Assembly (NCBI RefSeq): GCF_900108505.1
Contig: NZ_FNWU01000001.1
Coordinates: forward strand, 760,725 to 824,724
Length of the DNA: 64,000 nt
Reading direction: 5' to 3'
Source of the DNA: Halopenitus malekzadehii
GTDB taxonomy: Archaea > Halobacteriota > Halobacteria > Halobacteriales > Haloferacaceae
The notes under the pieces are model-generated. The model made no database searches, was not told the origin of the DNA, and saw only the letters and a list, made by a program, of their open reading frames with translations. A program made the position numbers and the translations under genes. Below are positions 6,928 through 45,477 of the stretch, piece after piece; the first letter of the stretch is position 1; every line of letters starts with the position of its first letter.

Positions 6928-7682
6928 CCGAGACACGGCCACTCATTCGGGTCGACGGTATCACGCGAACGTACGGCGGCGTCCCGGTACTTGCCGGCAT
7001 TTCCGCTGACATCCATCCCGGCGTGACGGCCGTGGTGGGCCCGAACGGGTCCGGAAAATCGACTCTGTTGCGCCTCCTCGTCGGCGAGACCTCACCCATC
7101 GATGGAACGGTTCAGTACGAGGGACCGAACGCTCCAAAACGGATCGGCTATCTCCCGCAGCGGGCGTCCTTCCGGGAGTCGTTCACCGCTCGGGAAACGC
7201 TCGCGTTCTACGCGCGACTGCTCGGCAAGCGCCCGGACGGGCATCTCGAGCGTGTCGGCTTGTCCGATGCAGCCGATCGATCTATCGGGGATCTTTCGGG
7301 CGGAATGCGTCGATTGTTGGGCATCGCGCAGGCGACGATCGGCGATCCGCCCGTTCTCGTCCTGGATGAACCGACGAGCGGTCTGGACCCCACAATGCGT
7401 GATCGGATATTCCGGTTGGCGGAGGAGTACGCGACCGCCGGCACCGCGGTCGTCGTGAGCACCCACGACCTCGATCTGGTCGACCGCTATGCGGACCGCG
7501 TGCTCTGTCTGCGACACGGGTCGGTTGCGGCGTCGGGGTCGCTCTCGGATCTCTACGCCGCTCACGGCGTGGAGACCGCAACCGACCTCTACCGATCGAT
7601 CGTTCACGACTCGAGCATCGAGACGGACCCATCCGAAGAGCCCACCGGGTCGGTCCACGTTACGGGGGTGTCGGACCGATGA
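6924..7682 (+). CDS. nosF: ABC transporter ATP-binding protein NosF
   Basis: A 252-residue ABC ATPase with Walker A GPNGSGKST (residues 39-47), Q-loop GYLPQRAS, signature LSGGM, Walker B VLVLDEPTSGLD and H-loop STHDL. With NosY it forms the membrane transporter thought to supply a sulfur species or drive NosD for assembly of the NosZ copper centres. The start ATG at 6924 overlaps the nosD stop, and its stop overlaps the nosY start; both are ATGA junctions. It therefore belongs to a tightly coupled nosDFY operon. Confidence 0.92.
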   Translation: MTETRPLIRVDGITRTYGGVPVLAGISADIHPGVTAVVGPNGSGKSTLLRLLVGETSPIDGTVQYEGPNAPKRIGYLPQRASFRESFTARETLAFYARLLGKRPDGHLERVGLSDAADRSIGDLSGGMRRLLGIAQATIGDPPVLVLDEPTSGLDPTMRDRIFRLAEEYATAGTAVVVSTHDLDLVDRYADRVLCLRHGSVAASGSLSDLYAAHGVETATDLYRSIVHDSSIETDPSEEPTGSVHVTGVSDR

Positions 7683-36133: not shown

Positions 36134-37567
36134 TCACTCGAACTCGGGGAGCGATGCCTGTCCCGTCCGCTGCCGGCGTCCACCGGTCCGATCGCCGTCA
36201 CCGCGGTTTCGGCCGTCATCACGGCCATGATCGTCGGATCTCTCACCGCCGCGATCGCCGCTGGTTCCGTTCTCCGCCTGCGTGTTCTCGAACCCCGACA
36301 GGGTCGCCTGGTCGCTGTCGGCGAAGTCGAGCTTGGCGACGCGGACGCCGAGCTTGCGGGCCCGGTCGTCGGCGAACTCCGCGAGGAGGTCGAGTGCCAC
36401 CGCCTCGACCAGGTCCGGGTCGTCGACGGGACCCGGGAGGCTCCGTGCGCGGGTATGCACCTCGTAGGGCGGCGTCACGACCTTCACGCCGATGGTTCGG
36501 TAGAGACACTCGCGCTCGCGGGCGCGCCGGGCCACGTCGGCCGCGAGCGCTTTCACGCGCTCGCGTTTCGTCTCCTCGTCGTCGGTCGGCGGGAGCGAGG
36601 ACTCCCGCGAGAGGCTCTTCGGGAGCCCGGTCGGGGTTACCTCTCGGTCGTCCTCACCGCCGGCACGCTCGTGGAGTTCCCGGCCGCGCTCGCCCAGTTC
36701 GGCCTCGAGGGCCGCAGGATCGGCGCTCGCCAGGTCGCCCGCGGTCTCGATCCCCATCTCGGCGAGCGTGCGCGCCGTGACCGGGCCGACGCCGTGAACC
36801 GTCTCGGTCGGGAGCGGCGCGAGGAACTCCCGGACGCGGCCGGGCGGGACGACCACCAGCCCCTCCGGCTTGTCGTGGTCGCTGGCGATCTTCGCGGTGG
36901 ACATGTTCGGCGCGACGCCGACGCTGGCGGTGACGCCCGCCTCGCGCTCGATCCGGTCGCGGACGTACCTGGCGTAGCCCTCCGCGAGCGTTCGACGCTC
37001 CGCGGGGCCCGCGGCGGCGCTTTCGGGGACGTCGCCGTCACCATCGTCGCCGCCGTTCGCGTCGTCGCCGGTGTTTGGGTCACCCTCGTCGACGCCGGAC
37101 TGACCCGCGAGTCCCCAGGACGTGCGGTCGGTCACGTCCAGGTACGCCTCGTCGATGCTCACCTCGCGGACGACGTCCGCACAGTCGTGCAGGATCGCCT
37201 TCACGTCCGCCGCGACCGACGTGTAGAACTCCAGATCGACGGGGCGGTAGTGGGCGGTCCGATCGGGATCCGGCGCGTTCGGATCGTCGGGGTCGGCCTC
37301 GGCGCGGCGCGGAAGGCGATCGAGGGCTCGGGAGATCGGGTCTGCGCTGTTCACGCCGAACGCGCGCGCCTCGTAGCTCGCGGTGGCCACCGCGCCGATC
37401 GTCTCGCCGGGCTCGTACCCCATTCCGACGACGACGGGCTCTCCGCGGAGCGACGGGTCACGCAGGCGTTCACAGGACGCATAAAAGCAGTCCATATCCA
37501 CGTGGAGGAGCACCCGATCGGCTCCCGTCGTGGGCTGCTGTGTACCCGGAAGCGTGTCCCCATCCAT
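36134..37567 (-). CDS. dinB: DNA polymerase IV (Y-family translesion polymerase)
   Basis: A 477-residue lesion-bypass polymerase. Catalytic acids are in LHVDMDCFYASCE and VSIDEAYLDV, steric and fingers residues in SYEARAFGV, then MSTAKIASDHDKPEG and the thumb GVGPVTARTLAEMG. An acidic insertion (GVDEGDPNTGDDANGG) sits in the palm. Near the C-terminus are two PCNA-interaction-like motifs, QATLSGFE and the terminal QASLPEFE, joined by an Arg/Asp-rich linker. ATG at 37567 follows the tight upstream spacer with the structured palindrome. Confidence 0.93.
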   Translation of the reverse strand: MDGDTLPGTQQPTTGADRVLLHVDMDCFYASCERLRDPSLRGEPVVVGMGYEPGETIGAVATASYEARAFGVNSADPISRALDRLPRRAEADPDDPNAPDPDRTAHYRPVDLEFYTSVAADVKAILHDCADVVREVSIDEAYLDVTDRTSWGLAGQSGVDEGDPNTGDDANGGDDGDGDVPESAAAGPAERRTLAEGYARYVRDRIEREAGVTASVGVAPNMSTAKIASDHDKPEGLVVVPPGRVREFLAPLPTETVHGVGPVTARTLAEMGIETAGDLASADPAALEAELGERGRELHERAGGEDDREVTPTGLPKSLSRESSLPPTDDEETKRERVKALAADVARRARERECLYRTIGVKVVTPPYEVHTRARSLPGPVDDPDLVEAVALDLLAEFADDRARKLGVRVAKLDFADSDQATLSGFENTQAENGTSGDRGGERSDDHGRDDGRNRGDGDRTGGRRQRTGQASLPEFE

Positions 37568-37618
37568 CGATCGACCGCTTAGTCGGCGAGCGACTTAAAC
37601 GCCGGCCGTGAACCGCCT

Positions 37619-37687
37619 CGGGGTCACGTGGTTCGAGACGCGAAGCGTCTCGTCATCACGGAAATCTGAGATTTCCGTCCGACCCCG
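37619..37687. repeat. Three-stem palindromic element (PATE/IS605-end-like or structured RNA)
   Basis: An outer stem CGGGGTC (37619-37625) / GACCCCG (37681-37687) encloses two perfect 8-bp hairpins: CGAGACGC-GAA-GCGTCTCG (37634-37652) and CGGAAATC-TGA-GATTTCCG (37659-37677). This would fold as a three-way junction in RNA or single-stranded DNA. It resembles the palindrome-rich ends of IS200/IS605 elements and their derivatives in haloarchaea (PATEs), but it shares no obvious stem with the tnpB element in this window. Confidence 0.65.
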
Positions 37688-38002
37688 GGGCATTCGCCTC
37701 GACCGCCTGTAAAGCGAACTGATGGCGCTGTGAGGATCGGTTTTGTCGATCGAGCCGGATTCGATACGAGCGCACATTTTGATTTCATATAGTAAATATA
37801 GAATATTTTATTTAAATGGGAAATATGGATTCAAGATCCATCGGGTTCGGAGTATGAAAACACAGTAAACGCGATCTGTAGGGATAATAGTCCGATATCA
37901 AAGAACAGTATATCTGTGTATTTTTATAATAATATAAATATATGTTGTATATTAAATATAAATATGCCGGGGGTCGAACGGCGGTGGTGGCAGATGTGAT
38001 AG

Positions 38003-38187
38003 CTATTAGAGAACGAAGTCGATATCGAATATCGTGACAGATATATGCGTGTAATAGAAGTCACTGACTCACCCGATAATTCCCATCAATTCCCGGGGAT
38101 CTCGACTGGGTCCCGTCAAGTCGGCTGATTCAGGCAGTCTCGATCCCGTCTGACTCCGCTATGACCGATCAGGTAGTTCTCTAATAG
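38003..38187. repeat. 12-nt inverted repeats bracketing about 160 nt
   Basis: CTATTAGAGAAC (38003-38014) and GTTCTCTAATAG (38176-38187) are perfect inverted repeats. Outer flanks GATAG and, after a gap, CTATC extend the symmetry. The element could be a small MITE or a pair of regulator sites upstream of the amidohydrolase-Rieske operon. Confidence 0.45.
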
Positions 38188-38259
38188 AGAATCTATAGTG
38201 CTATCATCCCGGCGTCGAGAACACAAACTATATATTGTATGACTCAAAGATGGTGACGT

Positions 38260-39396
38260 ATGGCATCATCAGTCAAACGGCTGGACGCCGACGCGGAGGT
38301 ACCGGATCAGGCGTTCGAGGACCATATCATTGATATGGACTTCCACGTCAATCCGGTCGAGGACGAGCTGTTGGCCTACGTGGAGGACGACCGCGCCCTC
38401 GACAAGCTGACGACCGAGTTCGGCGCGACGCCGGTCGTCGGCAAGTGGGACGCCGCCTACGGCATCAAGGAGGGACAGGAGGGGCTGTTCACCCAGGGGC
38501 GCGCGAAGTACGCCGCCGACGTGCGGGAAGCGTGCAAGAACATCGCGGTCGACGACCCGATCGTCAATCCGGGCATCAACAACCTCAACCTCCAGCACCA
38601 CCCGGTGTTGAAGAACGCCGTCGCCCAGGCGGCCAACGACTACATGCTCGACAACTTCGTCGACGAGGGCGTCTCCACCTCGATGATGGTTCCAAAGTGG
38701 GATCCCGACTACGCCGTCGAGGAGATCGAGCGCGTCGCCGCCGAGGACGGGATCGTCGCGGCCTACTCCTGGTTCGACCCGAAGGTCCCGTGGGGCAACG
38801 AGCAGTTCGACCCCGTCTTCGAGGCGCTGGTCGAACACGACCTGCCGCTGTTGCTGCACGGGTCGCTGGCCTATTGGCCACAGCACTCCTACATCGGCGA
38901 CGACATGTTGACCTGGACGGAGGTGCTCGGGTTCGACTGGCCGCTCCACACCATGGTCAACATCGTGAACATGATTATGCGGGGCGTCTTCGACAAGTAT
39001 CCCGAACTCGACGTCGTCTTCCAGGAGGGCGGCCACTGGTGGGTTCCGTTCCTTCGCTACCGGATGGACGAGTTCTACGAGATGCACCCCGACGACGTCA
39101 AGATCACGCCCCGGAAGATGGACTCCGGCGAGGAGTACCTCCAGCGCGCGCCCAGCGAGTACCTGCGTGACAACATCTACGTCTGCACGCAGCCGTTCGC
39201 GCTCCCGCGCAACGCGGGCCACGCCAGCGACCTGCTGAAGCTGTCGATGGCGGAGGACATGTTCATCTACTCGAGCGACTGGCCCCACCAGACGCTGGAC
39301 CCGCCGACGTGGTTCTACACGTCGAACGCCTTCGACGACGACACGCGAGAGGCCGTGCTGCACGAAAACGCCGAGGAGATCCTGCGGGGGTACTGA
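38260..39396 (+). CDS. Amidohydrolase-2 family (ACMSD-like) metal-dependent enzyme
   Basis: A 378-residue TIM-barrel hydrolase or decarboxylase. Probable metal and active-site residues lie in IIDMDFHVNP, LLLHGSLAYWPQ, EGGHWWVPFLRYR and SSDWPHQTLD. The first motif lacks the second His of DxHxH, as in some ACMSD-like decarboxylases. It likely acts on a carboxylated ring or amide compound; the substrate is unknown. The Rieske gene begins 6 nt after its stop. The upstream promoter region is long and AT-rich. Confidence 0.85.
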   Translation: MASSVKRLDADAEVPDQAFEDHIIDMDFHVNPVEDELLAYVEDDRALDKLTTEFGATPVVGKWDAAYGIKEGQEGLFTQGRAKYAADVREACKNIAVDDPIVNPGINNLNLQHHPVLKNAVAQAANDYMLDNFVDEGVSTSMMVPKWDPDYAVEEIERVAAEDGIVAAYSWFDPKVPWGNEQFDPVFEALVEHDLPLLLHGSLAYWPQHSYIGDDMLTWTEVLGFDWPLHTMVNIVNMIMRGVFDKYPELDVVFQEGGHWWVPFLRYRMDEFYEMHPDDVKITPRKMDSGEEYLQRAPSEYLRDNIYVCTQPFALPRNAGHASDLLKLSMAEDMFIYSSDWPHQTLDPPTWFYTSNAFDDDTREAVLHENAEEILRGY

Positions 39397-43916: not shown

Positions 43917-44183
43917 ATGCAAAAGACGGAACTCATCCACCTCCACGACCTGCTCGGGACGGTCTCGACGGACCTGTACGAGGAGGGGACGCTGGCGACT
44001 GACGACCTATCTGCGTACCGTGATCTCGGGACGTCGCCGATGTCGATCCGGGGATCACGAGCCGACCACGAGGCGGCCGTCATCGAACTGGCCGACGCGC
44101 TGGCCGGCGCGATCGAATCGGACCGCGGCGATGCATCGACGTCGGAGCCCCACGAGGACGCCGAATCACCGGTCACTGCGTGA
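43917..44183 (+). CDS. UPF0058 family protein
   Basis: An 88-residue helical protein beginning MQKTELIHLHDLLGTVSTDL, the hallmark of the UPF0058 family in Halobacteria and other Euryarchaeota. No function is known. A TATA-like ttttaat lies just before the start at about 43907. Its stop codon (44181-44183) is 1 nt from the stop of the convergent tnpB, so the IS right end abuts the gene without disrupting it. The C-terminal 15 residues are Ser/Glu-rich. Confidence 0.85.
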   Translation: MQKTELIHLHDLLGTVSTDLYEEGTLATDDLSAYRDLGTSPMSIRGSRADHEAAVIELADALAGAIESDRGDASTSEPHEDAESPVTA

Positions 44184-44330
44184 ACTACCCCACCCTACCG
44201 CTCGGGCTGACGCCCTCGCGCTTGAGGGTGGGGCTTCCTGTTTCAACGACGCGCTTTGCAGATACGGGTGTATCCGCAGGGAGCGTAGTCTCCACAGGCG
44301 TTGACGAGAGCGCAGCTCTCGTCCGCACAT
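44184..44330 (-). ncRNA. Candidate omega (right-end) guide RNA of the tnpB element
   Basis: On the tnpB strand the 3' end of the gene folds into several stems: GACGAGAGC-GCA-GCTCTCGTC near 44299-44319, CAGAATCG/CGATTCTG near 44330-44352, and the terminal 9-bp hairpin 44188-44233. TnpB proteins use such right-end transcripts, and the nucleotides just beyond the hairpin act as guide. Here that guide would begin AGTTCACGCAGTGACC, antisense to the UPF0058 gene end. Extent and expression are inferred. Confidence 0.5.
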
Positions 44331-45477
44331 CAGAATCGCAACGCGATTCTGAGGACGTTGATTCGGAGCGTCCCCCTCCTAACCGCTTCTTGATGCCGCG
44401 AGAAAGAATGTTCCGCGCCGCATTCGCGTCTCTATCCGTCTCGAAACCGCACGCCGGGCACGAGTGTTCGCGTACCCACAGCGGCTTATCCGTCGAGACG
44501 CCGCATGCCGCACACTCTTTCGTCGTGCCACGCGGATTCACGGCGACAAAGTGCGTTCCTTCGCGTTCGCACTTGTACTCAAGCATCCGCAGGAACCTCC
44601 CCCACGCCGCACCCGCCCGGTTCCGCGAGTTGCCCGGGAGTTCGACAAGTCCCTTCGCGTCCAAGTCCTCGACGGCCACGAGGTCGTATTCGCGGGCGTA
44701 GTAGTTCGAGAGTTTGTGCAAGAAGTCTCGCCGCTTGCGCTTCAGGTCGGCGTGACGTTCGGCCACGACGCGGCGCTGTTTCTTCCAATTCGAGGAACCG
44801 TGTTCCTTCCGCGAGAGGTCGCGTTGGGCGCGTTCCAACCGCTCGCGTTCGTCGGACAGGTCGAGGGATTCGACGGCGGTTCCGTCGGTGTCGTGGGCGT
44901 ACTTGAGAATCCCTACGTCGATACCGACGCACTTCTCGGGATTCTCGGGTTTCTCCGGCGGGTCGTCGGGAGTCTCGACCCCGAGGATGGCGTACCACTT
45001 CCCGGTGGGTTCCTGCTTGACCGTGACGGTCTTGATTTCGGCGTCATCGGGAAGGTCACGGTGGAAAGTGAGCGGGATTTCCCCGAGTTTCGAGAGACAC
45101 AATCGTGTCCGACCACTCGTGTTCTTGAGCTCGAAGCCGGATTGACTGTAGGTGAAACTTCGGTACTCGCCCGGTGCCTTCCACTTGAGGGTGCCGACGC
45201 GGTAGCCGTTTTCTTTGTGACCGCGAAGTGTGGAGAGGCTGTCGTACAACCGCTGAACGACTTTCTGAAGCACCTTCGAGTGAACGCTCTTCAGGTCGTC
45301 CCACCACTTCTTGAGGCTCGGCAAGAGTTTCTGTTCGCTGTATGCCGAGGTCTGGTCGGTTCGGTTGAGACGGTGGAGGAAGTGGTTGTAGACTTGTCTA
45401 CAGGTATCGACAGTCCACGCTAATCGCTCTTCGAGCGCGTCGGACGGTCGGAGTCGATACCTGTAGTTGTAGTTCAT
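44185..45477 (-). CDS. tnpB: TnpB RNA-guided endonuclease (IS1341-type)
   Basis: A 430-residue TnpB. The RuvC acids are Asp in VGIDVGILKYA, Glu in AVEDLDAKGL and Asp in DRDANAARNIL. The zinc finger is CAACG ... CPACG. N-terminal RLRPSDALEERLAWTVDTCRQVYN and the region RQFLHKLSNYYAREYDLV-like (RDFLHKLSNYY) are standard. All catalytic motifs are present, so it appears functional. The C-terminal 15 residues (GSPTLKREGVSPSGRVG) are read from the right-end hairpin. The upstream RHH gene ends 1 nt before the start. Confidence 0.93.
   Translation of the reverse strand: MNYNYRYRLRPSDALEERLAWTVDTCRQVYNHFLHRLNRTDQTSAYSEQKLLPSLKKWWDDLKSVHSKVLQKVVQRLYDSLSTLRGHKENGYRVGTLKWKAPGEYRSFTYSQSGFELKNTSGRTRLCLSKLGEIPLTFHRDLPDDAEIKTVTVKQEPTGKWYAILGVETPDDPPEKPENPEKCVGIDVGILKYAHDTDGTAVESLDLSDERERLERAQRDLSRKEHGSSNWKKQRRVVAERHADLKRKRRDFLHKLSNYYAREYDLVAVEDLDAKGLVELPGNSRNRAGAAWGRFLRMLEYKCEREGTHFVAVNPRGTTKECAACGVSTDKPLWVREHSCPACGFETDRDANAARNILSRGIKKRLGGGRSESTSSESRCDSDVRTRAALSSTPVETTLPADTPVSAKRVVETGSPTLKREGVSPSGRVG

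Follow-up and report, generated by a model that had tools for sequence, protein, structure and literature searches.

A probable terminal-only PATE with an omega-RNA-like scaffold lies upstream of dinB in Halopenitus malekzadehii

Upstream of the dinB gene of Halopenitus malekzadehii lies a short and strikingly structured palindrome, which raises the question of whether it serves the polymerase gene or is a mobile sequence that came to rest beside it. The initial annotation offered three readings: a mobile palindrome of the PATE type, a single-stranded DNA substrate for a TnpA, or a structured leader or antisense RNA controlling the translesion polymerase. The site was analyzed within a 64,000 nt stretch of contig NZ_FNWU01000001.1, here called the window, to which all coordinates refer unless another contig or locus is named. 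Within it dinB occupies positions 36134–37567 on the minus strand and encodes a Y-family DNA polymerase of 477 aa (IMS PF00817, E 2.9e-37).

The three-way junction is present in the sequence as described, with a 7-bp closing stem and two hairpins with 3-nt loops. The closing stem pairs CGGGGTC (37619–37625) with GACCCCG (37681–37687) and reaches 11 pairs when followed outwards (37615–37625 with 37681–37691), one of them a C.A on the minus strand. In plus-strand coordinates the first hairpin, CGAGACGC-GAA-GCGTCTCG (37634–37652), has the 8 bp that had been given for both, while the second, ACGGAAATC-TGA-GATTTCCGT (37658–37678), has 9 bp. The spacing of 52 nt to the dinB start, from 37619 to 37567, is likewise correct. 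On each strand the window fold was more stable than every one of 200 shuffles (z -4.06 for the plus strand, -3.31 for the minus strand). Rfam 15 gave no match at the gathering score, with one sub-threshold match elsewhere in the region 37000–38500, and a search of a phage collection found no match to the element.

The boundaries first assigned to the structure, 37619–37687, proved too narrow. The unit as delimited here is 101 bp long (37608–37708), lies on the minus strand, reads AGGCGG...GGTTCAC and stands directly after TTTAC. Its left end was set by comparison with full tnpB elements and 47-bp PATEs, which it matches, and its right border at 37608 was set where the flanks of the copies diverge, in most copies after (G/A)TTCAC or close variants. 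The left end, AGGCGGTCGAGGCGAAT (37692–37708, minus strand), is shared with 19 loci by exact pattern with R at one base, and is joined to an 84-nt three-way-junction scaffold (37608–37691, minus strand) recognized by covariance model R1 and by covariation. Within this scaffold the 9-bp hairpin at 37658–37678 is termed hairpin 1 and the 8-bp hairpin at 37634–37652 hairpin 2, both on the minus strand and with 3-nt loops; the right-end terminus is TTCAC (37608–37612). The adjoining target flank TTTAC (37709–37713, minus strand) is a candidate TAM, as other copies carry YTAC next to their left end. Model R1 scored 102.3 bits on the minus strand of the window and 42.1 on the plus strand, the window being one of the 14 sequences from which the model was built, and the scaffold forms 26 of the 27 model pairs and keeps the conserved junction bases.

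At 101 bp the element is too short for a transposase gene, and tblastn found no tnpB in the 1200 nt upstream of it. Its ends, AGGCGGTCGA and GGCGGTTCAC, are not related by inversion and so form no terminal inverted repeats; TTTAC is absent after the right end, which leaves no target duplication, and the near-terminal palindrome is related to IS605-type ends. By sequence comparison the left end equals that of tnpB elements and the palindrome corresponds to the scaffold found behind tnpB, together with the TTCAC terminus and the TTTAC flank. The suggested PATE-type mobile palindrome fits a gene-less unit that has both ends, a near-terminal palindrome, IS605-type ends and many copies. We therefore regard the element as very probably a terminal-only PATE, a gene-less 101-bp unit of IS605/IS1341 type carrying a complete omega-RNA-like scaffold, and as probably a passive insertion upstream of dinB.

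A search of the genome for further copies, one of the checks proposed at the outset, returned nine matches to a 101-base query (37600–37700) at E <= 1e-3 in the own genome, self included, so the palindrome is not a chance one. The own-genome copies L005–L007 lie at contig edges next to the 3' parts of tnpB genes and carry a scaffold of the same kind. Some 6.5 kb from the element, the window also holds a tnpB (44180–45477, minus strand) with a different right-end scaffold, whose closing stem is CCCCACCCT/AGGGTGGGG and which ends in AGTTCAC. When positions 37604–37730 were searched against three genomes of the genus, three matches of 31–33 bp at 97% were obtained that cover only 37684–37716, and these are the left ends of elements. 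One of them, from Halopenitus persicus (L098, a locus shared with L081/L085), has TTTAC-AGGCGGTCAAGGCGAATGCCCCGGGG ahead of a tnpB gene, with the right end some 1.4 kb further on. The 19 loci with the exact left-end pattern were found in genome contigs across many haloarchaeal genera. At 15 of them the right end follows directly, giving a terminal-only element of about 47 bp (about 52 with TTTAC); the remainder have it at 1.3–1.4 kb (3/19, full elements) or at 225 (1/19).

The covariance model of 14 sequences matches 83 of the 148 genomes of the family at E <= 1e-5. From 98 sources (30 loci, 60 fetched regions, the window and 7 earlier loci) we classified 95 copies, which are the best-scoring among the matches listed and not a random sample; the duplicates L159, L167 and L170 and 25 weak antisense matches were excluded. 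Right ends beside tnpB account for 27 of these 95 best-scoring copies, and 9 more show a tnpB 3'-end motif with no tnpB within 450 nt. Solo units of about 101 bp, made of left end, scaffold and right end, number 31 of the 95 with the window copy included, one of which, L180, is a doubtful member; the pattern defining this class was written after the sequences had been viewed, so tests on it are exploratory. In a further 22 of the 95 best-scoring copies the scaffold lies within the left end of longer repeats (21 in g17 genomes, 1 in g15), and 6 have other contexts. Among the solos the left flank is TCTAC in 21 of 31 and TTTAC in 3 of 31, and the terminus is TTCAC in 25 of 31. Plasmid records matched in 39 of 72,556 cases and supplied named hosts; three solo-type plasmid copies that were inspected, in Haloferax mediterranei, Natronorubrum bangense and Haloprofundus salinisoli, are intergenic and unannotated.

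Several single copies deserve mention. In two of them (L205 1522–1656 and G110:C5:4691–4825) the scaffold is longer by about 50 nt, which in L205 lie within hairpin 1; these internal additions recall the small mobile repeats of Haloquadratum, for which PATE palindromes are the target. Three others (L004, L068 and L124) have scaffolds and flanks that are nearly identical in the own genome (G000), in G002 and in another genus (G166), and end in GTTGAC; this looks like a shared mobile region.

Because the scaffold stands behind tnpB in 27 of the 95 best-scoring copies, we identify it as a match to the right-end or omega-RNA scaffold of IS605/IS1341-type elements. A fused unit, as the window element would be, carries one palindrome instead of two, which counts against movement of the solo form by TnpA. 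The core of a full element may have been lost between the near-identical GCC(T/C)CGGGG arms of the left and right palindromes, and this shared arm is the probable crossover point. Alternatively, the solo unit may have been copied from an earlier product of such a core loss. The 101-bp unit probably spreads as such, because the five most similar solo pairs, 94–97% identical, each lie within one genome and have different flanks. Movement, if any, would take place as single-stranded DNA through a TnpA acting in trans, so that the single-stranded TnpA substrate of the initial annotation is retained here as the probable mode of movement of the element. The own genome gave 6 Y1 transposase matches. 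One of these, with an open TnpA frame, belongs to a complete element at C25:23278–25338 (G000) with divergent tnpA and tnpB and with ends TTCTAC-AGGCGGGGCAGGCCGAGTGCCTCGGGG and GAGGCGGTTCAC that match the window element; it would be a plausible helper for the solo unit. No clean empty site of the window copy was found, the dinB flanks having diverged in the congeners, and joined-flank searches for two other solos returned nothing beyond the occupied locus or short fragments.

Whether the fold acts as RNA or as DNA was addressed through covariation and wobble pairs. Covariance across relatives, also named among the checks, supports the fold, with a covariation score of 0.212 against 0.111 in shuffles of the model alignment, as would be seen in the conserved fold of an omega-RNA. 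Solos alone also covary (0.186 against 0.073 in shuffles), with changes on both sides at 6 of 9 pairs of hairpin 1 and at 3 of 8 pairs of hairpin 2. A single copy, a lack of conservation and the absence of a transcript had together been given as grounds for dismissing the structure; on the first two points, multiple copies and covariation were found instead. The place of the scaffold behind tnpB and its covariation fit an omega-RNA; the window copy itself does not stand at a tnpB 3' end, as 27 of the 95 scaffold copies do. G.U cells outnumber A.C cells in tnpB-linked copies (14 vs 5) and in tnpB-remnant copies (7 vs 0), whereas solos have 17 G.U and 20 A.C cells and no strand bias by wobble pairs. 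Pooling both tnpB groups (21 vs 5) against the solos gives a Fisher p of 0.008, in a post hoc comparison of cells that are not independent, and setting the tnpB-linked group by itself against the solos gives p 0.087, again unplanned and with non-independent cells. Cells with non-standard pairs are commoner in solos (37/837 vs 17/729, p 0.026). We read this as a relaxation of RNA-level selection in the solos; a guide-RNA role there is possible and is disfavoured because the G.U excess of the tnpB-linked copies is absent from them.

Because 22 of the 95 best-scoring copies carry the scaffold in their left ends (L144–L158, L160, L161, L163–L166 and L197), where no guide would follow, the scaffold is, as far as these sequences tell, not only a right-end or omega-RNA feature. 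These copies suggest a DNA-level role for the fold: TnpA might use it at both ends. Alternatively, the copies may have arisen by gene conversion.

The strongest RNA-level reading of the solos is that the transcribed element is used in trans by a resident TnpB with its flank as guide, alleles without the insertion being cut and the element thereby preserved. In the window the would-be guide, placed by omega-RNA analogy, is the flank 3' of the right end (37588–37607, minus strand) and spans the dinB TATA-like box; its first 16 nt match the own genome only at self with 0 mismatches and three places at 2 mismatches. The nearly complete set of model pairs, the intact junction bases, the tnpB 3' parts with a like scaffold at L005–L007 and the covariation retained among solos all speak for such use, as does the PATE of Halorubrum virus HRTV-DL1, described as strongly transcribed (PMC10544981, citing Gomes-Filho 2015), by which a PATE as a transcribed RNA is already in print. 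However, the covariation may reflect descent from different parents, the window element lacks the 5' part that precedes the scaffold in tnpB-linked copies, and the wobble pairs (17/20 in solos, 21/5 in the pooled tnpB-linked and remnant copies) point the other way. The transcribed viral PATE is moreover without the window scaffold: an unfiltered model search of it found none, with a best score of 13.2 bits, and the analogy was rejected as evidence of transcription. We hold a guide-RNA use of the solos to be improbable. The wider proposition, that solo guide-RNA elements of about 101 bp are widespread in haloarchaea, moving with a borrowed TnpA while a borrowed TnpB cuts empty sites in trans with the insertion flank as guide, we likewise give little chance, and the lack of strand bias in the wobble pairs of solos counts against it. 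If it were true, the dinB copy would target the uninterrupted dinB promoter.

A terminal-only PATE, probably inserted passively, remains our preferred reading. The element sits 8 bp upstream of a TATA-like box, TTTAAG (37594–37599, minus strand), which lies 26 nt before the dinB ATG and recurs at 25 nt in the congeners G001 and G002. A TATA-like box about 25–26 nt before the ATG is the spacing of leaderless haloarchaeal genes. Because this box at leaderless spacing lies between element and ATG, the element would be outside the dinB mRNA. In favour of dinB control by a structured leader or an antisense RNA one could point to the stable fold 52 nt from the start codon and to the shared strand. 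The element, however, is sense to dinB rather than antisense, stands upstream of a TATA-like box conserved in the congeners, adjoins unrelated genes as a 101-bp unit elsewhere, and has no dinB-adjacent copy in any of the 15 relatives with a dinB locus. The leader or antisense proposal therefore finds no support, and we consider it extremely unlikely.

A second upstream sequence is of interest at this locus. The box TTTCACYTCCGCC, a consensus built from the same relatives on which it was scored, occurs upstream of the dinB TATA-like box in 8 of 15 relatives, the two congeners among them, with no more than 2 mismatches; in these 8, 0 to 7 of 500 shuffles were equally good. Over 150 nt in the window nothing comes closer than 4 mismatches; this best match is the end of the element itself and was equalled by 102 of 500 shuffles. 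By this comparison the element occupies the place where most close relatives keep the box, which may act in the damage response or as part of the core promoter. It is seen upstream of dinB in L037–L044 and L050, and in some genomes it continues into GCGCGTGGCG. The insertion might have altered dinB regulation by displacing this conserved box and have been kept for that, as its presence in relatives and poor match in the window would allow; however, the argument draws on one genome of the species and on a self-derived consensus, and we think it unlikely. A promoter effect of the insertion on dinB is in itself plausible, and is probably the sole likely effect of what we take to be a passive insertion; nothing suggests that the window copy was adopted for dinB control. 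Between dinB and an amidohydrolase gene the intergenic DNA at 37780–38250 is strongly AT-rich, and the region upstream of dinB in G001 and G002 likewise contains AT-rich DNA.

The striking palindrome thus becomes a defined and probably mobile unit, and a candidate for an insertion that alters the promoter of a translesion polymerase gene. It ties a haloarchaeal PATE to the right-end or omega-RNA scaffold of TnpB elements, within a uniform solo class present in many genera, and the copy on plasmid pHME505 (NZ_CP039140.1, about 7080–7187) of Haloferax mediterranei ATCC 33500 brings the solo-guide question within reach of experiment in a laboratory strain.

By titles and abstract starts we found no paper describing the 101-bp class, most subscription papers lying outside the coverage. 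Haloarchaeal omega-RNAs (sotRNA) are described with a right-end hairpin (PMC12558985), and the present element shares with the omega-RNA/reRNA of TnpB a scaffold whose kin stand behind tnpB, a right-end hairpin and a would-be guide flank directly after the end. It differs in that the element has neither tnpB nor the 5' part. A PATE-like element of Halanaerobium hydrogeniformans (PMC7290912), likened by its description, also fuses a left-end piece to a complete right end with hairpins, but it is bacterial and measures 271 nt with 58 nt of tnpB. The PATEs described in Haloquadratum walsbyi, including the terminal-only ISHwa23/HqIRS46 of 52 bp with the target counted within the element (PMC3119063), are likewise gene-less, lack an inverted terminal repeat, carry an IS605-like near-terminal palindrome and a target oligonucleotide, and have their core deleted from between the palindromes. 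Counted with the target, our 47-bp forms measure 52 bp, which is the published PATE length and convention. By description, the window unit differs from those PATEs in its length of 101 bp and in holding a whole two-hairpin three-way junction between its ends.
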